In this document: one piece after another, positions 3,504 to 40,128 of the stretch | Position numbering within the stretch: the stretch's first letter is position 1 | Layout: the number at the start of each line of letters is the position of its first letter | Virus record (IMG/VR): IMGVR_UViG_3300027822_000022 | Location: 1-42,715 of that record | DNA length: 42,715 nucleotides | Source of the DNA: a virus | Direction: 5' to 3' (one strand) | Translations under genes and position numbers: made by a program | The notes under the pieces: generated by a model | Seen by the model: only the letters and a program-made list of their open reading frames with translations | The model's database searches: none | Told to the model about the DNA's origin: nothing

Positions 3504-4469
3504 TCAGGCAACAATTACTCCTTGCAATGAGCGATTGCGGGCCGTCATGTTCCCCGCCCAACCGATGAGCTTGACCATAGCATCCTGATTTGTTGCATAT
3601 CTATCCGGGTTCAACGGCACCATGTCGCGCCGGGCGTGCGGCCGGTACGACAGGTAATCGCAGTTCAGGAAGTACATGTGGCTGGCCGGGGCGTTGCCGC
3701 CGAGGCCACCGTCGAACACCACGTCGGCGCCCATGAAGCGCAGGTTCTCGAACCCTGCCTCTCCGAGCTTCGCATTGGTGACGCGCTGGATCGCCTGCAG
3801 CGATTCCCAGTAGTAGCGGAAGTACGTGTTATCCGCGACGATCAGGTCCGGGTGATCCCGGTTACGCGAGCAGTTGAGGTACAGCGTGTTCATGGCGGTC
3901 TGGATCGTCGACGGACCCGGGGTCACGCTGTTGGCAGAGAAGTCGTAGAACTGGTTCTGCCAGAACGTCCAGGTGGTGCTGTTGATTCCGCCCACCGTGC
4001 CGGTGCCGGCGTCACCGACCAGGAGCTGCAAGCCCCCGATCTGCTTGCCGGAGTCGGCGGTGCCGTTCGAGTAGCAGTCGGACGAGATGTTGTTCATCAT
4101 CGTCCGCTCGGCGTTCTCGATACGACCGGCCAATAGATCGATGACCTGATCGTCGCCCGCGTTCTGCAACTCTTCGAGACCGGACATGGTGACCGCCACG
4201 GCGGCCTGCTTGATCTCGAATTCCGCCGCGGTGAACACGTCCGAGGCCGCGATATTCACATTGTCGTAGCCGGAATACCGCTTGTAGGTCCCGGTTTCCT
4301 GGTAGGCGATCTCCTCCAGGATGGTACGGCCGCCCGAGAATGGACGGCGTTTGCCGCGCTCTCTCAGCCGGTAGAGAAGGGCTGTGTTGTTGGAGACGTT
4401 ATCGGCGAGCTTCTTCGAGCGATTGCGCAGTGTGGTGCTCGCCACCTCCGAAATATTCGGGGATGCCAT
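3504..4469 (-). CDS. Phage major capsid protein
   Basis: 321 aa, with AGGAGTG before ATG. Starts MASPNISEVASTTLRNRSKKL; later regions such as SGGRTILEEI, YSGYDNVNIAASDVFTAAEF and an R/N-rich C-terminus (GNMTARNRSLQGV) are shared with coat proteins of HK97-fold phages that use a separate scaffold gene. It directly follows the scaffold gene, 26 bp downstream, and precedes decoration-like proteins, which is the usual order. It would form the icosahedral shell. Confidence rests on sequence pattern together with position. Confidence 0.85.
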   Translation of the reverse strand: MASPNISEVASTTLRNRSKKLADNVSNNTALLYRLRERGKRRPFSGGRTILEEIAYQETGTYKRYSGYDNVNIAASDVFTAAEFEIKQAAVAVTMSGLEELQNAGDDQVIDLLAGRIENAERTMMNNISSDCYSNGTADSGKQIGGLQLLVGDAGTGTVGGINSTTWTFWQNQFYDFSANSVTPGPSTIQTAMNTLYLNCSRNRDHPDLIVADNTYFRYYWESLQAIQRVTNAKLGEAGFENLRFMGADVVFDGGLGGNAPASHMYFLNCDYLSYRPHARRDMVPLNPDRYATNQDAMVKLIGWAGNMTARNRSLQGVIVA

Positions 4470-4495
4470 TTGTCACTCCTGGGGATTTGTGTTGA

Positions 4496-5740
4496 TCAGG
4501 CATGGCCGTTCCACACCTGTCTGACTTCATCCAACACGCTGTCCGCAGGTTGGCGCTCGCCGTGTCCGGCCGGTGTCCCGGTGACTGACGATCCCGCCCT
4601 TTGGGCTGCCACTGCCTTTGCCGCGGCCTCGTTCTGTCGCTTGCGAGCCGCCGCTGCTTCACGGGCTGCCTCAAGCTTTGAACGGGTCACGGGATTGGCA
4701 TATACGGCCATGTCGTAGGCCGACTCCATGTCGGCTGCGTGGCCTTTCTCCATTAGATCGGCCATCACTGCCCGCACCTCGGCGAAGTACGGGTGTTTCG
4801 ATACGCCGGACTCATCGGTCGCGGCTTGAAATTGTTCGACAGTCTGCTGACCGCTGGTCGCCCGGGCCTGGGTGTCGGCCGCGGTCATGCCCTGGATCTG
4901 GCCCTGGAGGGTTTTGACCTGCTCCAACAAGGGGGCAACGATGGGCGCGACGTGGGAGGCCAACACCTGGCTGACCTCCGGGTCCAGCGCCGTTGCCGGG
5001 TCCGCGCCATGGACGACTGTTGGATCAGCGCCCGGCGCCGGCATCGCGCCGGTTAACGTGCCGAGATCAAAGCCGCGCTCCTTGGCGAACCAGGAGATAA
5101 AGGCCCCCGGATCATTGTTGGCATAATCGCTCAGGGCCAGGAGATGATCGACGTACTGAGGCACCGACATGCCCTGCATCTTGATAGCCTGCTCGCGTGG
5201 CCCGATAACTTGGTCCAGGCCTTCGTACCGGCGGCGCTGCTCTGCCACGGCCTCGGTTTTCTCAGTGAAGGCCTTCGCGGTCTCCCGGTCTCGCTCCGTC
5301 ATCCATTTCTGAACCGCTTCCGGTTGCTCGCGGAAGAGCTTCTGCTGGTCGAGCGGCCAATGCGGGGGCGGCTCCAGCGGTCCGAGTACCGGATCGGCCG
5401 GGTCTGCGGCCGCTGCTGCTGGCTCCGTTGCCGCTGCCGGGTCTTCGGGCGCGGCGGGATCGGTGGCTGCCGGTTCAGCCGGGTCTCCACCGGCCTTGGT
5501 GAACCGGCCCTTGCCGTCTCGAACCGGGCCCGCCGACGGCTCCGGCTGAGTCGAGGCAGGAGGTTCCGCAACAGGCTCTGGGCTGGGCGATGGGTCAGCG
5601 CCCGGCTCAGGCGTTGGAGCGAGCTCCGATGCACCGCCGGCGGGTTCGGGTTCCATGGCTGAGCGCAAGTCCGCCACGATGTCGTTGTGGCCGCTTTCCA
5701 CGGCGGGCATAGAGTCGGTCTGGATCGCGGGCTCGGTCAT
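4496..5740 (-). CDS. Phage scaffolding protein
   Basis: 414 aa. The first 130 residues are low complexity, rich in Pro, Ala, Glu and Asp. Then comes a long helical part (MTERDRETAKAFTEKTEAVA, VEQFQAATDESGVSKHPYF) and a C-terminal basic, Ala/Arg/Lys-rich helix (SKLEAAREAAAARKRQNEAA) of the type that binds coat protein. Position directly upstream of the capsid gene, with the start overlapping the previous stop (ATGA), fits the scaffold that templates procapsid assembly and is then lost. No protease motif seen. Confidence 0.8.
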   Translation of the reverse strand: MTEPAIQTDSMPAVESGHNDIVADLRSAMEPEPAGGASELAPTPEPGADPSPSPEPVAEPPASTQPEPSAGPVRDGKGRFTKAGGDPAEPAATDPAAPEDPAAATEPAAAAADPADPVLGPLEPPPHWPLDQQKLFREQPEAVQKWMTERDRETAKAFTEKTEAVAEQRRRYEGLDQVIGPREQAIKMQGMSVPQYVDHLLALSDYANNDPGAFISWFAKERGFDLGTLTGAMPAPGADPTVVHGADPATALDPEVSQVLASHVAPIVAPLLEQVKTLQGQIQGMTAADTQARATSGQQTVEQFQAATDESGVSKHPYFAEVRAVMADLMEKGHAADMESAYDMAVYANPVTRSKLEAAREAAAARKRQNEAAAKAVAAQRAGSSVTGTPAGHGERQPADSVLDEVRQVWNGHA

Positions 5741-6693: not shown

Positions 6694-7541
6694 TACGGGA
6701 TGTTCGCTTCGCTCTCGGTGTAGTCGGTGCCGTCGTCAGCCAGGTCCTTCTCCCATTCGACCGTTCCGCCGTCGTCGAAGAATTGCTTCTTCGTCGCACT
6801 TACGAGGACCTTGTTGCGCAGCGCCATGAAGAGATAGGCGAGCTTAACAAGCGGCGTCTCATTGGCAGCCGGCACGCCCGTTGGCTCCGAATCGGCAGCA
6901 TTTAGCAAATCAGTGACGGCCTTGATAGCGTCTATCAAAAGGTCAAGCCGCCCGCCGTCGGCCCAGTCACCTTGAAGCTCATCAGAGTCTGCAACAATCG
7001 CCGCAGTCTCTGCTTTCAGGGCAATGATATCGGCGGCTATGTCATCCCCTGCCGCGTTGGTAATCACCGCCGCTTGAATGGCATCCAATTCTGCTTGAAG
7101 CGTGGTACCGGTGTCCACCAGGATGGCGGCAATCTCGGTATCGAGGAAATCATCGATAGTGTCGATCAATGCCTTAAGTGCGCCGAGACCATCTGTGCCG
7201 TTCGCTAAGTCCTGTGCGGCTGCACTGCGGCCTAGCGAGAACGACTCCACAACCTCACCGACGACCGAGACACCGCCCACCGTACCCGTGGTGATAACGA
7301 TGGAATAGTTCTTGCCGGTCTCGAAGCCATTGGCCCCCGTGGCCACGATGGTCGCGAGATTGAGACCCACCACCGAATCATGATCGACGCCAAGCGAGAC
7401 ACCCGCTGTAATCTGGGTCAGCGAAGCATCTTCGTAAGCCGAGAGCACCGGTGTACCGGCCAGCACAGTTGGGACACCCGTCGCGAAAGCACGCGTGGTG
7501 AAGAGGAAATGCAGGGTATCGCCGACTTGGAAATCCGTCAT
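6693..7541 (-). CDS. Putative baseplate/tail-fibre-like structural protein
   Basis: 282 aa, start overlapping the upstream stop (ATGA). Residues 1-110 are beta-rich (VGDTLHFLFTTRAFATGVPT, YSIVITTGTVGGVSVVGEVV) and resemble the N-terminal domain found in many phage baseplate or fibre proteins. Residues 120-235 form a long Ala/Asp/Ile helix pattern (LKALIDTIDDFLDTEIAAIL and onward) suggesting a trimeric coiled coil. The C-terminus is acidic with VEWEKDLADDGTDYTESEA. It may be an attachment or fibre protein. Inference from pattern only. Confidence 0.65.
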   Translation of the reverse strand: MTDFQVGDTLHFLFTTRAFATGVPTVLAGTPVLSAYEDASLTQITAGVSLGVDHDSVVGLNLATIVATGANGFETGKNYSIVITTGTVGGVSVVGEVVESFSLGRSAAAQDLANGTDGLGALKALIDTIDDFLDTEIAAILVDTGTTLQAELDAIQAAVITNAAGDDIAADIIALKAETAAIVADSDELQGDWADGGRLDLLIDAIKAVTDLLNAADSEPTGVPAANETPLVKLAYLFMALRNKVLVSATKKQFFDDGGTVEWEKDLADDGTDYTESEANIP

Positions 7542-25215: not shown

Positions 25216-25431
25216 TTAGGCAGCCGCTTCCGGTAAAAACCCCTCCGGGAGCGGCTTTCCGGCCTCTTTGGCCAGGGCGGCGACCTGGAAGCGCCACTTC
25301 CAGGGAACACCCGCCGTTTTCCACTTGTAGACCGCCTCACGGTCTAATGATTCACCGGCCATCTCGCCCAAGGCTTTGGCCAGCTTCGTCCCGCCTCCTA
25401 GGGCGTCGATCAATGTCGCGTGCTCTGACAC
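25216..25431 (-). CDS. Cro-like regulator (carph-isopro/YdaS-type HTH)
   Basis: 71 aa from GTG at 25431. Sequence: ATLIDALGGGTKLAKALGEM, DREAVYKWKTAGVPWKWRFQ, VAALAKEAGKPLPEGFL. The VPWKWR segment plus the downstream Leu-rich helix is the signature of phage Cro/YdaS-like regulators that have the isopro motif. It diverges from the XRE repressor at 25491. The -10 box of the facing promoter ends seven bases before GTG, so the mRNA may have almost no leader. A longer frame from 25500 would cross the promoter and was rejected. Confidence 0.8.
   Translation of the reverse strand: MSEHATLIDALGGGTKLAKALGEMAGESLDREAVYKWKTAGVPWKWRFQVAALAKEAGKPLPEGFLPEAAA
25223..25258 (+). terminator. Possible terminator stem-loop
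   Basis: GCCGCTTCCGG and CCGGGAGCGGC form an 11-bp stem with one G-U type mismatch and an 11-base loop, then a short T run. It lies in the last codons of the Cro-like gene. On the plus strand it would end the transcript of the 53-aa gene; the T run is weak, so this is tentative. Confidence 0.3.
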
Positions 25432-25437
25432 GACGCA

Positions 25438-25466
25438 ATACTCAGAGTTTTTCTCTGAGTTGTCAA
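25438..25466 (-). promoter_or_regulatory. Leftward early promoter with operator in its spacer
   Basis: On the minus strand TTGACA (25466-25461), a 17-bp spacer, then GAGTAT (25443-25438) form a good sigma-70 promoter. The spacer is filled by the operator palindrome (25441-25459). Transcription would start at about 25431, which is the GTG of the Cro-like gene. Mirror of lambda PR. Confidence 0.7.
25441..25459. promoter_or_regulatory. Repressor operator, perfect 7-5-7 palindrome
   Basis: CTCAGAGTTTTTCTCTGAG: perfect 7-bp arms around five T. The same sequence, one base different, recurs at 25937-25955 inside another promoter spacer, and a degenerate copy lies at 25905-25923. An adjoining TTGTC-N5-GACAA repeat (25460-25474) may be a second type of site. 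Confidence 0.7.
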
Positions 25467-25490
25467 GTAGACAATTTGGGCGACGACTGG

Positions 25491-25853
25491 ATGATGGCAC
25501 TCAACGAAAATTTCGGCATGGATCGGGAAAGCCGAGACGCGCCGGTTAACTACCTCAAAGAGTGTGGGGAACGTCTTGAGCGCGTCCGGCTGGCGTTGGG
25601 GTATCCGAAGCGCCCGGCATTCATCCGGGACTTGTTCGGCAACCAGCTTGAAGAATCAGAAGTGGCCCGCCGCCGTGCCCAGCTTGAGAAATGGGAATCC
25701 GGTGAGGTGCTGGCCCGGCCCTGGTTTGTCGATCATCTCAAGGCGGTGTTCAACGTCACTCAGGACTATGTGTTCTCCGGCGATAAGCGGGGGCTGACCT
25801 TTGAGCTGCGCAACGCCATTGATGAGATCGAGCGCAAGAACCGCCCCCGGTAA
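25491..25853 (+). CDS. XRE-family HTH repressor (CI-like)
   Basis: 120 aa from ATG at 25491; ATG codons at 25494 and 25518 are alternatives, and no start has a strong ribosome site, which suits a low-level repressor. The protein reads YLKECGERLERVRLALGYPK, RPAFIRDLFGNQLEESEVAR, RRAQLEKWESGEVLARPWFV and DHLKAVFNVTQDYVFSGD, the arrangement of XRE regulators in which W-E-x-G ends the recognition region. It lacks the LexA/CI peptidase part, so induction cannot run through RecA-driven self-cleavage of this protein. It lies between the two operator sets, as cI does in lambda. Confidence 0.8.
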   Translation: MMALNENFGMDRESRDAPVNYLKECGERLERVRLALGYPKRPAFIRDLFGNQLEESEVARRRAQLEKWESGEVLARPWFVDHLKAVFNVTQDYVFSGDKRGLTFELRNAIDEIERKNRPR

Positions 25854-25904
25854 CCTTTAATTTCCCCGGTTTTTTCGGCACTGCGTTCGGCAGGCCGTTT
25901 CGTG

Positions 25905-25923
25905 CGCCGAGTTTTTCTCTGAA
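25905..25923. promoter_or_regulatory. Degenerate second copy of the operator
   Basis: CGCCGAGTTTTTCTCTGAA keeps five of seven bases of the left arm and six of seven of the right arm, with the same central T5. It ends seven bases before the -35 box of the rightward promoter and could bind repressor cooperatively with the site at 25937. Confidence 0.55.
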
Positions 25924-25929
25924 TACCCC

Positions 25930-25958
25930 TTGACTTCTCAGAGTTTTTCTCTGATATT
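25930..25958 (+). promoter_or_regulatory. Rightward early promoter with embedded operator
   Basis: TTGACT (25930-25935), 17 bases, GATATT (25953-25958). The spacer carries CTCAGAGTTTTTCTCTGA (25937-25954), the same operator, placed as in the leftward promoter. The first gene of the accessory operon starts at 25991. It corresponds to lambda PL in a mirrored map: same strand as the repressor gene and downstream of it. Confidence 0.7.
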
Positions 25959-25990
25959 ATCTCTCAGGAACACAACCTGGGAGCCGCGCC

Positions 25991-26305
25991 ATGCCAGCCA
26001 AGACGAAGCCCAAACCCGCCCGCAAGACAAAAGAACGTGCGGTACTCGTGACCACGGCCCACCGTGGGGTTTTCTTCGGTTTTGCGACGAAGACCGACGG
26101 CAACACCATTAAGCTACGCGCGGGCCGCTGTTGCATTTATTGGCCGAGCGAGAACCGGGGTTTTATCGGCCTTGCGAGTGCCGGTCCCGCGAGCGGTGCA
26201 AAGGTCGGCCCCGCCGCTGATATCGAACTACGCGACATCACCAGCGTTGCCGAGTGTACGGCTACCGCAGTTGAAGCATGGGAGAAATTCCCGTGGCGAC
26301 GTTGA
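25991..26305 (+). CDS. Small phage protein, first gene of the rightward operon
   Basis: 104 aa with GGGAG before ATG. After a Lys-rich N-terminus: ERAVLVTTAHRGVFFGFATK, TIKLRAGRCCIYWPSENRGF, IGLASAGPASGAKVGPAADI, ITSVAECTATAVEAWE. This is a recurrent small beta-rich phage protein usually paired with the next, GY-repeat gene. Function unknown. First gene after the repressed promoter, so likely produced immediately on induction. Confidence 0.75.
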   Translation: MPAKTKPKPARKTKERAVLVTTAHRGVFFGFATKTDGNTIKLRAGRCCIYWPSENRGFIGLASAGPASGAKVGPAADIELRDITSVAECTATAVEAWEKFPWRR

Positions 26306-26781
26306 CCCGAGGCAAGGTGCCTAGCTGGGTCGGCTACGGCGACGGCTACGGCTCCGGCTACGGCTCCGGCGACGGCTACGGCTACGGCTCCGGCTACGGC
26401 TACGGCTCCGGCTACGGCTCCGGCTACGGCTACGGCGACTATTGGGTGCAAACCATCAAATACTTTTCAAAAAAATGGCCCGCCAAGCAACGTGCGCGCC
26501 TCGCGGCGCTCAAAAAATCGGGCGCCAAAATTGCTTTCTGGCGGTCCGACAGTAATGGGCGGGCTTGCAACGGCGGCGGCAACTCACCTGTCGCGCCTGG
26601 AACGGTTGAAACCGCTTCTGGGCCGCTGCGGCTGTGCCGCGACGGCTCGCTCCACGCGACGCTCTTGCCGCCCAAGTGGAAAGGTTCGCGTTGGTGGGTT
26701 GTCGCCCTTATTGGCGACGTGGTTGGCGACGACGAAAAGTACGCCGCGCTCAAGCGAGAAGTCATTGGTGAAGCACTATGA
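26293..26781 (+). CDS. Protein with Gly-Tyr/Ser-Gly repeat tract and folded C-domain
   Basis: 162 aa from GTG at 26293 with GGGAGAA six bases upstream; an ATG at 26278 is a less supported alternative. Residues 14-49 are 18 Gly-X pairs (X = Tyr, Ser or Asp). The rest is folded: YFSKKWPAKQRARLAALKKS, GAKIAFWRSDSNGRACNGGG, GPLRLCRDGSLHATLLPPKW, RWWVVALIGDVVGDDEKYAA. The repeat could be a flexible or phase-separating tether. The C-domain recurs in phages with no known role. It overlaps the previous gene by 13 bases. Confidence 0.75.
   Translation: MATLTRGKVPSWVGYGDGYGSGYGSGDGYGYGSGYGYGSGYGSGYGYGDYWVQTIKYFSKKWPAKQRARLAALKKSGAKIAFWRSDSNGRACNGGGNSPVAPGTVETASGPLRLCRDGSLHATLLPPKWKGSRWWVVALIGDVVGDDEKYAALKREVIGEAL
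26332..26439 (+). repeat. Hexanucleotide tandem repeat (GGCTAC / GGCTCC / GGCGAC)
   Basis: Eighteen six-base units encoding Gly-Tyr, Gly-Ser or Gly-Asp. The units are nearly identical at the DNA level, so slippage can change the count in multiples of six bases without breaking the frame. Confidence 0.9.
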
Positions 26782-31053: not shown

Positions 31054-31121
31054 TGGCGATGCTCAACAGAATCACGCGGCCGCTGCGCAAGTGGTTGGCT
31101 CATAGGCGGAGGTGGGCGTGA
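31053..31121 (+). CDS. 22-codon basic micro-ORF
   Basis: ATG overlaps the previous stop (TGATG) and its TGA overlaps the next GTG (GTGA). Reads MAMLNRITRPLRKWLAHRRR and two more residues. Strongly basic. It may only carry translation to the exonuclease gene. Confidence 0.4.
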   Translation: MAMLNRITRPLRKWLAHRRRWA

Positions 31122-32032
31122 CAAACGAACTTGTTGTCGACAACAAGCTGATCAGCGAGCCGGGCATCTATGACATTCCGCCCGAGGTTTACCACGGACA
31201 GCCATGCGTCGAGCCGTCTATAGGGTCGAGCGGTCTGCGCATGTTGCTGAATGAGTGCCCGGCCAAGTACTGGTTCCATAGCCCGCTCAACCCGGATCGA
31301 CCACCGGAGGAATCGAAAGTCCATTTTAGTATCGGCAAGACGGCCAACGATCTGCTGCTGCATGGAGAGGAGTGGTTCTGGGGACACAACCATGTTTTGG
31401 GCTACGAGACTCTCCAGACAAAAGCCGCCAAGGCCGAAAAGGTTGAGGCCGAGGAGGCGGGCAAAAACGTCATCAACAAGAAGCAGTGGGCCGAGATCCA
31501 AGCCATGACGGAGGCCTTTGCGGAGCATCCTTTCGCATCGGCGGCCTTCATGAGCGGGAGATCGGAGCCGTCACTGTTCTGGCAAGACCGGGAAACCGGT
31601 GTCTGGTTGCGGTGCCGGCCGGATTTCCTGCCCAGCGCGCTACGCCACATCCCAGATTACAAGACCGCGGCCAGCGCCAAGCCGGAAGATTTCAAGCGCT
31701 CCATTTACAACTACGGCTACCACATGCAGGCCGCCCTTTACCTCGACGGAATCGAGAACGTCACCGGCACCAAGCCGCAATCGTTCTACTTCGTCGTGCA
31801 GGAAAAAGAGGCGCCCTACATCGTGACGTGCCAGGCGGTCGAGCAGATCGCCGTCGATTGGGGGCGCATTCAGAACCGCAAGGCGATCCATCTATTCGCC
31901 GAATGCCTCGAAAAGAACGAGTGGCCAGGCTACGCGCGCGATGTGATCGAGGTCGGGTTGCCGTTCTATGCCGAAATGGAATTGCAGCGCCAGCATGAAG
32001 CCGGGCGCTTTGATGTGGAGGAAGTGGCGTGA
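31118..32032 (+). CDS. RecE-like PD-(D/E)XK exonuclease
   Basis: 304 aa from GTG at 31118, with GGAGG five bases upstream. N-terminus PGIYDIPPEVYHGQPCVEPS, then SSGLRMLLNECPAKYWFH, which is the usual start of phage RecE-type nucleases. Catalytic residues: E150 in SEPSLFW, D169 in CRPDF, D180 and K182 in PDYKT. Later YHMQAALYLDGIE is also typical. It would resect 5' strands to prepare DNA for annealing, partnered with the protein at 32628-34001. Confidence 0.88.
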   Translation: MTNELVVDNKLISEPGIYDIPPEVYHGQPCVEPSIGSSGLRMLLNECPAKYWFHSPLNPDRPPEESKVHFSIGKTANDLLLHGEEWFWGHNHVLGYETLQTKAAKAEKVEAEEAGKNVINKKQWAEIQAMTEAFAEHPFASAAFMSGRSEPSLFWQDRETGVWLRCRPDFLPSALRHIPDYKTAASAKPEDFKRSIYNYGYHMQAALYLDGIENVTGTKPQSFYFVVQEKEAPYIVTCQAVEQIAVDWGRIQNRKAIHLFAECLEKNEWPGYARDVIEVGLPFYAEMELQRQHEAGRFDVEEVA

Positions 32033-32631
32033 TCCTGTTTTTCGATACGGAGACAACCGGGTTTGTCGACAAGAAGAAGCCAGCCAATTGGGAGGGGCAG
32101 CCGCGTCTGGTGCAGTTGGGCGCTGTTCTTACCGAAGACGACGGCACCGAGAGGGCGGTCGTCAATCTGATCGTGCGTCCAGAACCAATGATGCGCATCC
32201 CTGAGCAGGCCAGCAGGGTTCACGGCATCACGGACGAGATCGCTTTCCGCTGTGGCGTCACGCCCAAATCGGCCATGGGTGTGTTCTTCAGGCTCGTGGA
32301 AGTATCCGACCTTTTGGTCGCTCACAACATGGCCTTCGATCTTCTGGTGATGCAGGCGGAAGCATACCGCAATGGGCAGGAGAAGATCGCGGAACTGCTC
32401 CAATCAGAAACTCTCTTTTGCACCATGGAGACGGCCACGCCCATCGTGAACCTCCCGCCGACCGACCGCATGCTGGCAGCCGGTTTCAACAAACCAAAGG
32501 CGCCCAAGCTCGAAGAGTGTATTCGCTATTTCTTTGGCGAGGAGATCGAGGGCGCACATGACGCCCTGGTCGATGTTCGGGCCTGTGCACGCGTCTATTT
32601 CCACCTTCTCAGCCTGGAGGACACCCCATGA
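32029..32631 (+). CDS. DnaQ-like (DEDDh) 3'-5' exonuclease
   Basis: 200 aa from GTG (GTGA overlap). DEDDh motifs: FFDTETTG with D6 and E8, VHGITDE, HNMAFD with D104, and HDALVDVRA with H177 and D182. This is a proofreading-type nuclease domain without a polymerase. It lies inside the recombination set and may trim 3' ends or degrade single strands during recombination. Confidence 0.9.
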   Translation: MILFFDTETTGFVDKKKPANWEGQPRLVQLGAVLTEDDGTERAVVNLIVRPEPMMRIPEQASRVHGITDEIAFRCGVTPKSAMGVFFRLVEVSDLLVAHNMAFDLLVMQAEAYRNGQEKIAELLQSETLFCTMETATPIVNLPPTDRMLAAGFNKPKAPKLEECIRYFFGEEIEGAHDALVDVRACARVYFHLLSLEDTP

Positions 32632-34001
32632 ACCAACCCGTATCCAAAGACGCCATTTTGCAGCAGAGCAACATGAAGGCGCCATCGAGCGAGGCCACGC
32701 ACATCGAACAATCGCGTGCTATCGCTCAAGTACAGGGCGCGCTCGTCGTCGCCCAGCAGCGTCCGCGCGATCAGACGGCGGCAATCGAGCGCGTGCGACA
32801 GACATGCTCCATGCAGGCTGTAGCCGAGCGCGCTTTCTTCAAATACTCGCGCGGCGGTTCGTCTGTCTCGGGGCCGAGCATCCACTTGGCGACCGAGATC
32901 GCGCGGTGCTGGGGGAATATCGACTTTGGCATTGCCGAATTGCGCCGGGACGATGAGGACGGCAAGAGCGAAATGCTCGCCGTGGCGTGGGATCTGGAGA
33001 CCAATATGCGCTGCACCAACACCTTCATCGTTCCGCACAAGCGGGACAAGAGAGGTGGTGCCGAGGTCCTGACAGATATGCGGGACATCTACGAGAACAA
33101 CGCCAACATGGGCGCCCGGCGGCTGCGCGAATGCATCCTTCGGGCCATTCCGCCGTGGCTGCGCGAGGAAGCGATTTCTATGGCGATGAAGACGCTGGAA
33201 ACGGGCGGCGGCCAGCCACTGCCGAACCGGATAGCGAACTGCCTGGAGATGTTCGCGGGTATCGGCATCACCCGCGAGCAGATCGAAAAGAAGATAGGCG
33301 TGCCGGCCGACAAGATGACGGCCCTCGACGTGGCCAATCTTGGAGTGGCCTTCAATTCGATCAGGCGCGGGGAAATTTCCAAGGATGAGGAGTTTGGCCC
33401 AGCACACGCCGACGACATCTCGGGTGACCTGCGCAAGCGAGCCGGCGCCCCAACGACAGAGAAAACCGACGACGGCGCCGAGGACGCGCCGGCGAAGGGT
33501 CCTCTCAAGTATCAATTCAAAAACTCTACCGGCGAGGTCGCAGACAACCTGTTCTCCTCTGCCTTCTGCGACCGTGTCGAGGCGGCAATCGAAGCGGCCA
33601 AGGACTTGCCGGCGCTAGAAGGGGTCTGGGAGAGCAATCAAGAAGCCCTGGACACGCTCGTCACCGATCCCGACGAACAGACCACGGCTTGGCACAAGGC
33701 GCTACAGGACGCTTACGCGGCGCGCATCGCTGCGCTGACGCCAGCGGAAGAAGAGGAGCCGCTGGTGAACGACAAGGATTCGGTCGCGCTGTTCGACGGC
33801 GATGGTGCGCTACTGAATCGCTATCCGCGGTCGACGCCTTGGTTCGGCAATTTCAAGCAGCACGTTGAGAAGGCCAAAGACAAGCGGGCGATCATCGAAC
33901 GGAATCGCGCGGGCGCGGACCATTGGATCGCGAAGCGGACGGCGAACGCGGCGAAGTTCTGGGAGGAGATCCAGGGCATGGCCGAGACGGAGAAGGTCTG
34001 A
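32628..34001 (+). CDS. Putative recombination (single-strand annealing-type) protein
   Basis: 457 aa, ATGA start. The N-terminal 260 residues follow a known phage family: ARAIAQVQGALVVAQQRPRD-like text (here SRAIAQVQGALVVAQQRPRD), AERAFFKYSRGGSSVSGPSI, HLATEIARCWGNIDFGIAEL, DMRDIYENNANMGARRLREC. This family is commonly next to RecE-like nucleases, and single-strand annealing has been inferred for it. The C-terminal 200 residues are charged, helical and variable, with a possible partner-binding role. I am sure of the family pattern but not of the activity. Confidence 0.6.
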   Translation: MNQPVSKDAILQQSNMKAPSSEATHIEQSRAIAQVQGALVVAQQRPRDQTAAIERVRQTCSMQAVAERAFFKYSRGGSSVSGPSIHLATEIARCWGNIDFGIAELRRDDEDGKSEMLAVAWDLETNMRCTNTFIVPHKRDKRGGAEVLTDMRDIYENNANMGARRLRECILRAIPPWLREEAISMAMKTLETGGGQPLPNRIANCLEMFAGIGITREQIEKKIGVPADKMTALDVANLGVAFNSIRRGEISKDEEFGPAHADDISGDLRKRAGAPTTEKTDDGAEDAPAKGPLKYQFKNSTGEVADNLFSSAFCDRVEAAIEAAKDLPALEGVWESNQEALDTLVTDPDEQTTAWHKALQDAYAARIAALTPAEEEEPLVNDKDSVALFDGDGALLNRYPRSTPWFGNFKQHVEKAKDKRAIIERNRAGADHWIAKRTANAAKFWEEIQGMAETEKV

Positions 34002-35155: not shown

Positions 35156-35268
35156 AGGGCAATAAGCCGCTGCTGCTCTACTTCAACACGAAAAAAGACC
35201 GGGAATGGTTCATTGAAAAGGCGCAAGCGGCCAGGCCCGGAATGATCAGCAAGGCGGTGGAGATATGA
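35071..35268 (+). CDS. 65-aa phage protein; start uncertain
   Basis: From GTG at 35071: HGATWADAEKLWQVIERRYL, SAHRDMKGNKPLLLYFNTKK, DREWFIEKAQAARPG. The whole frame looks protein-like. A shorter form from ATG at 35152 (38 aa) would overlap the previous stop by ATGA. The stop overlaps the DUF5131 start. Function unknown. Confidence 0.5.
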   Translation: MHGATWADAEKLWQVIERRYLHSAHRDMKGNKPLLLYFNTKKDREWFIEKAQAARPGMISKAVEI

Positions 35269-36146
35269 GCAAGATCGAATGGACCGACAAAACGTGGAAC
35301 CCTGTGGTCGGGTGCTCGCTTGCTTCGCCGGGATGCACGAATTGCTATGCGATGAAGATGGCGTCGCGGCTAGAGCGGATGGGTGTGGCCCACTATGCAG
35401 GGCTGACCGCGCCGTCGAAGGCCGGAGCGGTGTGGACCGGCAAGATCGCGCACGCACCGGAGCACATCCTGACCGCGCCGCTGCGTTGGCGGAAGCCCCA
35501 GACCATCTTTCCCAACTCAATGGGCGATCTATTCCACGAGGACGTGCCCGACGAGTGGATCGATCAGTCGTTCGGTGTCATGGCCCTTTGCCCGCAACAC
35601 ACGTTCATGCCGCTGACCAAGCGCAGCCGAAGGATGTTGGCTTACGTGGCGCGGGGCGATGACGAACATGGGTCACTAATCGAAAGCATCGCGGACATTG
35701 GTGCGCGGTTTATGGAAGACGGCGACAACGCGCACGATTGGTTGCTAGGGATGCCATGGCCATTGCCGAATGTGTGGCTAGGCACATCCGTTGAAGACAG
35801 GGCGCGCAAACATCGCATCGATGATCTGCGTGAGACACCAGCCGCTGTCCGGTTCCTATCATTCGAGCCGCTGCTTGAAGACTTGGGCGAGATCGATCTT
35901 ACCGGCATCCACTGGGTCATCGTCGGCGGCGAGAGCGGGTCAGGCGCGCGGGTGTTCCAACTACAATGGGCTCGCTCGATTATCAAACAATGTCAGGCTG
36001 CGGGAGTGCCTGTTTTCATGAAGCAAGTCGGGGCCTACGCGACAGATGGCCGTGGGCAACTTCATTTTTCCGACCGCAAGGGCGGCACCATGGATGAATG
36101 GCCAGAAGATCTGCGCGTGCGGGAATTCCCAAAGGTGGCGGCATGA
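35265..36146 (+). CDS. DUF5131 (phage Gp37/Gp68) family protein, possible radical SAM-like
   Basis: 293 aa, ATGA start. N-terminus IEWTDKTWNPVVGCSLASPG, CTNCYAMKMASRLE gives Cys17, Cys24 and Cys27 (C-x6-C-x2-C). Then MGDLFHEDVPDEWIDQSFGV, FMPLTKRSRRM, LPNVWLGTSVEDR, RFLSFEPLLEDLG, WVIVGGESGSGAR and PVFMKQVG, all marks of this family. The three Cys suggest an Fe-S cluster like that in radical SAM/SPL-like proteins; the activity is unproven. It forms an interesting pair with the GP88-like protein on the other strand. Confidence 0.88.
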   Translation: MSKIEWTDKTWNPVVGCSLASPGCTNCYAMKMASRLERMGVAHYAGLTAPSKAGAVWTGKIAHAPEHILTAPLRWRKPQTIFPNSMGDLFHEDVPDEWIDQSFGVMALCPQHTFMPLTKRSRRMLAYVARGDDEHGSLIESIADIGARFMEDGDNAHDWLLGMPWPLPNVWLGTSVEDRARKHRIDDLRETPAAVRFLSFEPLLEDLGEIDLTGIHWVIVGGESGSGARVFQLQWARSIIKQCQAAGVPVFMKQVGAYATDGRGQLHFSDRKGGTMDEWPEDLRVREFPKVAA

Positions 36147-37443: not shown

Positions 37444-37455
37444 GGGAGATTGAGT

Positions 37456-38682
37456 ATGAGCGAAGCCAAATACATAGCTGAAAAGCAAGAGGGTAGTGCG
37501 CCGATCAAGATGTGGACCAGGGGCGTGCCGGTCGAGGATGCGGCAATGCAACAGCTTCGCAACGTTGCTGCCCTACCCTTCATACATAGCCATGTCGCGG
37601 CAATGCCGGATGTTCATTGGGGATATGGTGCGACGGTCGGCAGCGTGATCGCCACCAAGGGCGCCATCATACCAGCCGCGGTCGGCGTAGATATCGGCTG
37701 CGGCATGATGGCAGTGCGGACAAGCCTTCGAGCCGACCAACTTCCCGACAACCTTGGTGGCTTGAGATCCGCGATCGAGGAAGCGGTGCCGCATGGGCGA
37801 ACCGACAATGGCGGTGCCAATGACCGGGGCGCTTGGGGCAATATTCCCAGCACCATAGCACTTAAATGGGCCGACACTCTCGCCGCGCGCTACAAAAGCA
37901 TCGTCGAAAAGCACCCGAAGGCCCTGGCCCGCAATAACGACCGCCATCTGGGCACACTTGGAACAGGCAATCATTTCATTGAGGTGTGTCTCGACGAAAG
38001 CAACCAGGTGTGGGCCATGCTGCATTCAGGTTCGCGCGGGTGTGGGAACCGTATCGGCACCTACTTCATCGAGCGCGCCAAGGAAGATATGCGCCGATGG
38101 TTCATTAATCTTCCTGACGCCGATCTGGCGTACTTCCCGCAAGGGTCTGAGCTATTTGACGACTATGTGGAGGCCGTCCACTGGGCGCAGGAGTATGCCC
38201 TGAAGAACCGACGGATCATGATGAAGGAAGTTCTCGATACGATGGCGGCTGAATTGCCGCCCTTCACGGTCACCGACATGGCGGTGAACTGCCACCACAA
38301 CTACGTCGAAATCGAGAACCACTTCGGCGCCAATGTACTAGTGACCCGCAAGGGCGCCGTCAGGGCGCGTGAGGGCGATCTGGGTATCATTCCGGGCTCT
38401 ATGGGGGCCAGGAGCTTCATCGTGCGCGGCAAGGGCAATCCGCAGTCCTTCAACTCATGTTCGCATGGCGCCGGCCGCATCATGTCCAGAACCGAGGCGA
38501 AGCGTAAATTCACCTTGGCAGACCATGAGAAGGCCACGGCAGGCGTTGAGTGCCGAAAGGACGAAAGTGTCCTGGACGAAACGCCCGGTGCCTACAAGGA
38601 CATCGATACCGTGATGGCGGCGCAGGACGACCTGGTGGAAGTGGTGCACACGCTTAAACAGATTGTTTGCGTAAAAGGCTAA
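37456..38682 (+). CDS. rtcB: RNA ligase RtcB
   Basis: 408 aa, the length of bacterial RtcB, from ATG at 37456 (a TTG six bases earlier is less likely). Metal-binding and catalytic residues: D79 and C82 in GVDIGCGM, H173 in GTGNHFIE, H190 in LHSGSRG, H280/H281 in CHHNY, and H337 in SCSHGAGR, the guanylylated histidine. MPDVHWGYGATVGSVIATKG also matches. RtcB joins 2',3'-cyclic phosphate and 5'-OH RNA ends with GTP. In a phage it may repair tRNA cut by host defence nucleases. All key residues are present. Confidence 0.95.
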   Translation: MSEAKYIAEKQEGSAPIKMWTRGVPVEDAAMQQLRNVAALPFIHSHVAAMPDVHWGYGATVGSVIATKGAIIPAAVGVDIGCGMMAVRTSLRADQLPDNLGGLRSAIEEAVPHGRTDNGGANDRGAWGNIPSTIALKWADTLAARYKSIVEKHPKALARNNDRHLGTLGTGNHFIEVCLDESNQVWAMLHSGSRGCGNRIGTYFIERAKEDMRRWFINLPDADLAYFPQGSELFDDYVEAVHWAQEYALKNRRIMMKEVLDTMAAELPPFTVTDMAVNCHHNYVEIENHFGANVLVTRKGAVRAREGDLGIIPGSMGARSFIVRGKGNPQSFNSCSHGAGRIMSRTEAKRKFTLADHEKATAGVECRKDESVLDETPGAYKDIDTVMAAQDDLVEVVHTLKQIVCVKG

Positions 38683-38689
38683 CCCAGCC

Positions 38690-38956
38690 ATGGGCCTACC
38701 CGCAGACAAGCTCCACAACTGGCCGCGGCGCATGAAGGCCGATCTGGCGGCGGAGTACTGCGGGGTATCGAGCACCAAGTTTAGGAGCGAGGTGGCGGTT
38801 GGTCGGCTTCCAGCAGGGATCCTGGACGGCGGCAATCGGCTTTGGTATCGCGAGGACCTGGATTCAGCCCTTGACCGATTGAAGCAAGGCGGGGAACCAT
38901 CGGGCGACCCCGAAGAAGAAGTCAATGAATGGCTGAAAGCTGTCCGTGAAGGTTGA
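38690..38956 (+). CDS. Excisionase-like DNA-binding protein
   Basis: 88 aa. Residues 15-65 (RMKADLAAEYCGVSSTKFRS, EVAVGRLPAGILDGGNRLWY, REDLDSALDRL) follow the winged-helix pattern of MerR/excisionase-type helix-turn-helix domains: A-x-Y-x-G-V-S, then a wing and RxDLDxAL. It overlaps the integrase start by eleven bases, the usual place for xis. It likely directs excision. Confidence 0.75.
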   Translation: MGLPADKLHNWPRRMKADLAAEYCGVSSTKFRSEVAVGRLPAGILDGGNRLWYREDLDSALDRLKQGGEPSGDPEEEVNEWLKAVREG

Positions 38957-39974
38957 GTTCGCATATGTCCAGATGGTCACCGCGAGGGGGCACATCTACG
39001 CCTACTACCGACGCGATGGACTTCGCCAAAGGATCAGGGGTGAGGTCGGCTCGGAAGAATGGCAGGCGGAATATAACCGCATTCACAAGAGCTTTGAGCA
39101 AGGCCCGGCCGAGCCCGGCATCAACCCAGGTAGCCTCGCAGATCTGATCGCGCTGTTCAAAAAATCCTCAGACTTCGCCGCGCTCAAACCATCCACACGG
39201 CAAAGCTACGCTCGCTACATGGATCTTCTGCGGGAGAAGTACGGAGCCCACAAAATCCGCTCCATGCCGCGTGAGTTCGTCCTGGAGCTGAGGGACAAGC
39301 ACGCCGAAATGCCCCGCAAGGCCAACTACATCATTTCAATCCTGCGTGTTCTCCTCGCCTACGCCCTCGATAGACCGAGCCGGTTTGGCATCGAGTTCAA
39401 CCCAGCGGTCAAAATCAAGAAGCTCGAAACAGGGCCAGGCTATCCACCTTGGCCGGACGGGCTAATGGCCGCCGTTTGGGACGAGGAGAAGTGCATCCCG
39501 GAATTACGCCTAGCCATAGCCACGGGTGCCTTCACGGGGCAGCGCATTAGCGATTGCATCGCTGTAACCTGGAAGAATTACGACGGGCAGCAAATCAATC
39601 TGGTCCAGCAGAAGACCGGCGTCGAGCTAACGATACCGGTGCACCCGGACCTGAAATCTATGTTCAAGGGCGTCCCTCGCAAGGCTGTTCAGATCCTCGT
39701 TGACCCGAGGGGCCGGCCCTGGACCCGTTTCGCGCTGGGCAAAGCCGTTCGCGAATTCGTGACGGCCGCCGAATATCCAGGCTATAGCTTCCACGGCCTG
39801 CGGAAACTGGCGAGCAAGAACCTTGCGGAAACGGGCTGCACGGAGGATGAGATAAAGGCGATCACCGGGCACCAGACGTCGGCGATGGTGTCGCACTATA
39901 CGAAGGGTGCGAACCAGAAACGGCTGGCCAAGAGCGCCATCAAGAAGCTCTCAAAAGGGCGCCGAAAAACATAA
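38946..39974 (+). CDS. int: Tyrosine-family site-specific integrase
   Basis: 342 aa from GTG at 38946. N-terminal SAM-like DNA-binding part (KPSTRQSYARYMDLLREKYG), then the catalytic domain with R200 (TGQRISD), K223 (QQKTG), H283-x2-R286 (FHGLRK), H309 (TGHQTS) and the nucleophile Y318 (SHYTK). The full set is intact, so the enzyme should be active. It ends 78 bases from the tRNA-Phe 3' end, its likely target. Confidence 0.93.
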   Translation: MKVEFAYVQMVTARGHIYAYYRRDGLRQRIRGEVGSEEWQAEYNRIHKSFEQGPAEPGINPGSLADLIALFKKSSDFAALKPSTRQSYARYMDLLREKYGAHKIRSMPREFVLELRDKHAEMPRKANYIISILRVLLAYALDRPSRFGIEFNPAVKIKKLETGPGYPPWPDGLMAAVWDEEKCIPELRLAIATGAFTGQRISDCIAVTWKNYDGQQINLVQQKTGVELTIPVHPDLKSMFKGVPRKAVQILVDPRGRPWTRFALGKAVREFVTAAEYPGYSFHGLRKLASKNLAETGCTEDEIKAITGHQTSAMVSHYTKGANQKRLAKSAIKKLSKGRRKT

Positions 39975-40052: not shown

Positions 40053-40098
40053 TGGTGCCCAGGGGCGGATTCGAACCACCGACACCGTGATTTTCAGT
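40053..40098. other. Probable attachment site in the 3' part of tRNA-Phe
   Basis: The tRNA 3' end faces the integrase, so the 5' part is host and the 3' part was probably supplied by the phage. The exact core cannot be set because the other junction is outside the window. The coordinates cover the tRNA 3' half only as the likely place. Confidence 0.5.
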
Positions 40099-40128
40099 CA
40101 CGTGCTCTACCAACTGAGCTACCTGGGC
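40053..40128 (-). tRNA. tRNA-Phe(GAA) with encoded CCA
   Basis: On the minus strand: 7-bp acceptor stem GCCCAGG/CCTGGGC, D arm with AGTTGGTA, anticodon arm CGTGA-CTGAAAA-TCACG giving anticodon GAA, variable GTGTC, T arm with TTCGAAT, then A and CCA. Intact 76-nt tRNA. It serves as the integration target and follows the maf-rng-yacG-protease genes. Confidence 0.97.

Follow-up and report, generated by a model that had tools for sequence, protein, structure and literature searches.

Genes and elements of the switch region

The analysed stretch of DNA, referred to here as the window, is the whole 42,715-nucleotide IMG/VR virus record. Its central regulatory region holds two divergent genes, one for a Cro-like protein and one for a short XRE-family protein, together with early promoters that carry palindromic candidate operators. 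The main features are listed below, with related viral loci given by their L numbers.

25216–25431, minus: Cro-like regulator, 71 aa, carph-isopro domain (NCBIfam NF046037), weak match to P22_Cro
25466–25461 / 17 bp / 25443–25438, minus: predicted cro (PR-like) promoter, TTGACA / GAGTAT, heading the leftward replication and late genes
25441–25459: putative OR operator, CTCAGAG-TTTTT-CTCTGAG, located in the spacer of the cro promoter; same place in L061, L076, L062, L010, L032 and L044
25483–25488 / 17 bp / 25506–25511, plus: predicted repressor (PRM-like) promoter, ACGACT / GAAAAT, with transcription predicted to begin at the ATG
25518–25853, plus: putative short XRE repressor of 111 aa with a predicted helical HTH domain and no recognisable peptidase domain; homologues in L061 and L076
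25905–25923: degenerate, OL2-like operator candidate, 32 bp centre-to-centre upstream of OL1
25930–25935 / 17 bp / 25953–25958, plus: predicted early rightward (PL-like) promoter, TTGACT / GATATT
25937–25955: putative OL1 operator, CTCAGAG-TTTTT-CTCTGAT, located in the spacer of the early promoter
25991–26305, plus: first early-operon gene, DUF6948 (Pfam PF22253, E=6e-21)
31112–34001, plus: early-operon recombination genes (exonuclease VIII-like, DnaQ-like exonuclease and phrog_3657 proteins)
38946–39974, plus: integrase, closing the rightward genes and adjoining a tRNA-Phe gene (40053–40128)

Leftward of the cro-like gene lie the replication genes (a DnaB-like helicase and a primosomal protein), the terminase and the structural genes, and the rightward arm closes, after the recombination genes, with an HTH_17 protein followed by the integrase. 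Replication and late functions are therefore placed on one side and recombination and integration on the other, as in lambdoid phages, and the cro-like and repressor genes diverge with operator-bearing promoters flanking the repressor gene. The lambda order of cro, operator, repressor, operator, early operon and int that had been proposed in the initial annotation is indeed found, on the other strand, although its description as a mirror image merely reflects the arbitrary strand of the record. The rightward operon also encodes an RtcB RNA ligase and a DUF5131 protein (37450–38682 and 35265–36146). The gene that follows DUF6948 (26278–26781) contains a GYGSG/GYGDG low-complexity repeat tract and is kept together with DUF6948 in L023 (about 4280–4700).

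The Cro-like protein matches the carph-isopro model NF046037 with 47.0 bits against a curated cut-off of 38. Its start codon is GTG and forms the seventh base after the -10 element, from which a leaderless mRNA is predicted. The start codon is likewise the seventh base in L061 and L076 and the eighth in L010, L032 and L044, with the L044 cro promoter counted with an 18-bp spacer.

The XRE gene had been taken to start at 25491. The ATG at 25518 is probably the true start, since the aligned methionine of the homologues lies at the same distance from the operator (58–60 bp in the window, L061 and L076, as judged from the three aligned XRE proteins) and in each of the three phages a -10-like hexamer (GAAAAT, CAAAAT or CATGAT) precedes it by exactly 6 nt. 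Only 0.7–1.3% of ATGs have a -10-like hexamer in this register. A promoter TAGACA/GATGAT combined with the 25491 start was considered and dropped, as this promoter is not common to the homologues whereas the 6-nt register is. The cro and repressor mRNAs are thus both probably leaderless, as far as can be read from the DNA. In the phage PY54, leaderless cI and cro mRNAs have been shown experimentally (PMC4488713).

Neither the window XRE protein nor its two homologues (102 and 106 aa) showed a recognisable peptidase domain, in agreement with the initial annotation. The protein has no Pfam match, and the Peptidase S24 domain with its Ser-Lys dyad that marks self-cleaving CI proteins of the LexA/S24 type was not detected. 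As a single-sequence prediction folded poorly (pLDDT 55.8), an AlphaFold model was built from the three XRE sequences instead, and this is all-helical with a pLDDT of 89.3. Its top PDB match is the DNA-binding domain of the P22 c2 repressor, at a non-significant E of 0.27, and its best E in BFVD is 3.9e-03; no match falls below E 0.001 in either PDB or BFVD, and the best matches besides P22 c2 are other XRE proteins. Because XRE homologues are few (two), the name repressor draws on the position of the gene and on an HTH fold with weak structural matches.

Palindromes within the outward promoters

The palindrome CTCAGAGTTTTTCTCTGAG, or CTCAGAG-T5-CTCTGAG, occurs without mismatch at 25441–25459, with one mismatch at 25937–25955 and with three at 25905–25923, and these are its only copies in the whole 42.7-kb record. 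Among 100 dinucleotide shuffles the mean number of copies was 0.00 and none gave three matches. The exact, one-base-changed and degenerate copies of the initial annotation are present where it had placed them. Both early promoters, TTGACA/GAGTAT on the minus strand and TTGACT/GATATT on the plus strand with 17-bp spacers, were also confirmed in the sequence. They had been described as facing each other, but they diverge and fire outward, away from the XRE gene. These elements are near consensus for E. coli sigma-70 only. At both promoters the palindrome begins one base past the -35 element and with its end supplies the first bases of the -10.

Perfect 6-5-6 dyads adjacent to TTGACN number three in the window, namely OR, OL1 and one unrelated, against 0.045 expected per shuffled window. 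The unrelated dyad, in which TTGACN is followed by the perfect 6-5-6 sequence TTGATAGACGCTATCAA, is found on the minus strand within a structural gene (about 6920–6946) and, as a single copy, is probably due to chance. The degenerate copy at 25905–25923 can plausibly be read as OL2, because upstream partner sites recur at the same side in L061 (spacing 31 bp), L076 (23), L032 (30), L044 (29), L015 (29) and L010 (22). Next to OR, at 25460–25474, lies a separate repeat, TTGTC-N5-GACAA, with one exact occurrence in the window.

It is very improbable that the palindromes are hairpins of intrinsic terminators or attenuators, or chance repeats, rather than operators. A terminator scan does report a weak terminator-like stem at 25938–25954, but both palindromes lie upstream of the predicted start points of transcription. 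Moreover, their distance to the -35 element hardly varies among the aligned promoters of the window and its relatives, their sequences co-vary between the two sides of the switch (see below), and no chance copies are expected.

Relatives and co-variation of the operators

A search with DUF6948 gave 51 viral loci, whilst alignment of the carph-isopro protein led to L061 and L062 and alignment of the XRE protein to L076. Other searches were less productive. The exact palindrome was found in viral contigs only within two RNA-phage replicase genes, a coding coincidence, and a search with the promoter-plus-palindrome pattern had a single match, in coding sequence of L060. Scans of GTDB genome contigs with the XRE protein and DUF6948 revealed no relatives, P0002 and P0001 had none or weak matches only among plasmids and phages, P0003 had none among phages, and an integrase scan gave no relatives.

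L061 and L076 share the order cro, OR, short XRE, OL1 plus OL2 and early operon, but with different 6-5-6 palindromes. In L061, whose XRE homologue is 37% identical, TCCGAA-N5-TTCGGA is found in both promoters. L076 has an XRE homologue of 43% identity; its cro promoter carries TCGGAA-N5-TTCCGA and its early promoter a copy with one mismatch, while its second OL copy, 23 bp upstream, is weaker. The half-sites in the window, L061 and L076 are TCAGAG, TCCGAA and TCGGAA, changing jointly at both promoters and offering a series for the study of repressor–DNA specificity. The recognition region of the XRE protein varies among the three phages, as expected if the protein reads the varying base. Sites of the form TCNGA-N7-TCNGA occur only at the switch in the records of L061 and L062 and in the window, and a reversed-pattern control in L061 and L062 gave zero. 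L061 also encodes, between the repressor and OL and on the repressor strand (minus, 1066–2358), a predicted lipoprotein with a trypsin-like protease domain, which takes the position of lambda rexAB and may be cargo expressed in the lysogen.

L010, L032 and L044 have the same layout before the same DUF6948 gene, with a palindrome in both spacers. They differ in having two or three OR sites and other palindromes (TGGGC-N4-GCCCA in L010, TCGGATATATCCGA in L032 and CGGGTTTTAACCCG in L044), those of L010 and L032 being unrelated to that of the window. Between the operator groups, L010 and L032 encode a CI with a Peptidase_S24 domain. In L044 both promoters and palindromes are present but a CI gene between them was not seen; only a short stretch separates the operators (3776–3889), possibly the mark of a deleted repressor. 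In L015, CAAAA-N4-TTTTG is associated with the early promoter. More broadly, of the 13 loci in which DUF6948 is directly preceded by a promoter-like site, 5 show a 5-bp-arm dyad over the spacer, compared with a background of 10% of promoter-like sites in the loci.

When the six phages with both sides (the window, L061, L076, L010, L032 and L044) were compared, OR was best matched by the OL of its own phage in 6/6, and the summed OR/OL identity of 94 was the highest of 720 pairings. As the relatives were chosen for showing a switch, this statistic tests co-variation and not frequency. The same phage-specific operator is thus found in both early promoters, as in a lambdoid switch. Co-variation among relatives had been named in the initial annotation as a check on its reading of a lambda-like switch whose two early promoters share a single operator type; operators do differ between phages and match across both sides, which bears that reading out.

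Which of the two proteins reads the palindrome can be judged from the same relatives. L062 encodes a carph-isopro protein of 52% identity, and its promoter TTGACA-17-GACAAT holds a near-identical operator, TCAGAATTATTCTCTGA, but its whole record contains no XRE homologue, so that the Cro-like protein could be the main reader of the palindrome. The XRE protein would then have another role, for instance forming a complex with the Cro-like protein, like that of CI and MOR in TP901-1, or recognising the TTGTC-N5-GACAA repeat. CI–MOR complexes on composite operators are known (PMC7250872), and the singularity of the repeat in the window fits the second option, but the repeat overlaps the -35 element and is absent as a repeat at OL. 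Against this division of labour, both L061 and L076 retain the XRE protein, and each of their two promoters carries a 6-5-6 TCNGA palindrome. L076 has kept the XRE protein even though the identity of its Cro-like protein is as low as 30% and a carph-isopro match is lacking. It is thus unlikely that the palindrome is read mainly by the Cro-like protein. With the XRE protein (in L076) and the carph-isopro protein (in L062) each separately tied to the operator class, the simplest reading is that both would bind it.

A probable lambda-type switch with a short putative repressor

Taken together, the region is considered to be a lambda-type prophage immunity region in which the short XRE protein is the lysogeny repressor, with a probability of about 0.82. 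Sequence and comparison show the sites, their register, the gene order, the co-variation of the operators and the lack of a detectable peptidase domain, and from these a scheme of binding, repression, leaderless starts, Cro function and relief of occlusion is proposed. The XRE repressor would bind 25441–25459 and 25937–25955, and more weakly 25905–25923, and by occupying the spacer and first -10 bases it would exclude RNA polymerase from the two outward early promoters. The carph-isopro protein would be the counterpart of Cro, probably acting on the same sites to damp the early promoters and hinder repressor synthesis. With a single OR site there can be no lambda-style OR3/OR2/OR1 ladder. OR lies wholly upstream of the predicted repressor promoter, and polymerase at the cro promoter would cover the -35 element of the repressor promoter (25483–25488). 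A repressor bound to OR may relieve this occlusion and favour its own transcription, making positive autoregulation plausible.

As no peptidase domain could be detected, RecA-driven self-cleavage of the XRE protein is unlikely. The initial annotation had concluded that induction must use some other route. That conclusion agrees with the missing domain, but the analysis did not reveal such a route. The early proteins scanned included no recognisable antirepressor, and LexA boxes (GAACN7GTTC, GTTCN7GTTC and others) are missing near the switch, the one match being inside the terminase gene. Induction would require an antirepressor, competition by Cro or decay of the repressor. In TP901-1 and the Gifsy-type antirepressor phages, the lysogeny repressor is not inactivated by RecA-driven self-cleavage. 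Antirepressors (PMC3121763) are one known alternative and partner proteins, MOR among them (PMC7250872), another, but unlike in TP901-1 and the Gifsy-type phages, neither a MOR-like partner nor an antirepressor or LexA box was identified in the window.

Lambda CI represses by occupying the promoter at OR1 and OL1. In the lambda genome (J02459) the spacer of PR and the first four bases of its -10 lie within OR1, and the same holds for OL1 at PL, so that an operator within the promoter spacer, which had been presented as special, is shared with lambda. The two systems are also alike in having outward divergent promoters around the repressor gene, an operator in the 17-bp spacer overlapping the -10 of both, cro directed toward the replication and late genes with recombination and int on the other arm, and a second operator upstream of the early promoter. 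Lambda has three sites at OR, in tandem, and three at OL, whereas the window has one and two. The window palindrome, in contrast to the lambda operators, is a 19-bp perfect 7-5-7, its putative repressor is much shorter and has no detectable counterpart of the peptidase and oligomerisation domain, and its cro is itself predicted to be leaderless. The switch is therefore an ordinary, textbook lambda-type architecture with a short repressor and a reduced operator set.

The three-site OR is a trait of lambda itself and not of all lambda-like switches, as PY54 demonstrates (PMC4488713). This N15-like telomere phage resembles the window in its single OR-type operator, and its demonstrated leaderless cI and cro mRNAs parallel those predicted for the window, but its site is found by the repressor gene and its Cro lacks self-repression, whereas the window site lies in the cro promoter and is repeated at OL (PMC4488713).

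A more specific model can be offered tentatively, although it is rather doubtful as a whole. The unclassified short XRE family and the carph-isopro proteins may represent the CI and Cro of a prophage group, made from leaderless mRNAs and competing for one OR in a minimal one-site switch. Bistability would stem from promoter occlusion and OL pairing, not from a cooperative OR ladder, and induction would be non-SOS or by antirepressor. The uncharacterised carph-isopro domain gains a testable function as a Cro-type lytic regulator, as does an XRE family that is missed by curated libraries.

A separate observation concerns a conserved RNA-like element found about 20–60 nt before the DUF6948 start in 26 of the DUF6948 loci (L013, L024, L033, L016, L042, L029 and 20 more). 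It is missing before the DUF6948 gene of the window, matched nothing in Rfam when eight loci were scanned and does not occur elsewhere in 522 kb of sequence. The element has a stem of 4–5 bp, the first three pairs of which are intact in 26/26 with C-G, G-C, T-A and A-T swaps, and an almost invariant loop, GC(G/A)CCTCG. This is followed by C(A/T)GGGGC, which is able to pair with the loop, making the element, beside the ribosome binding site, a candidate H-type pseudoknot.
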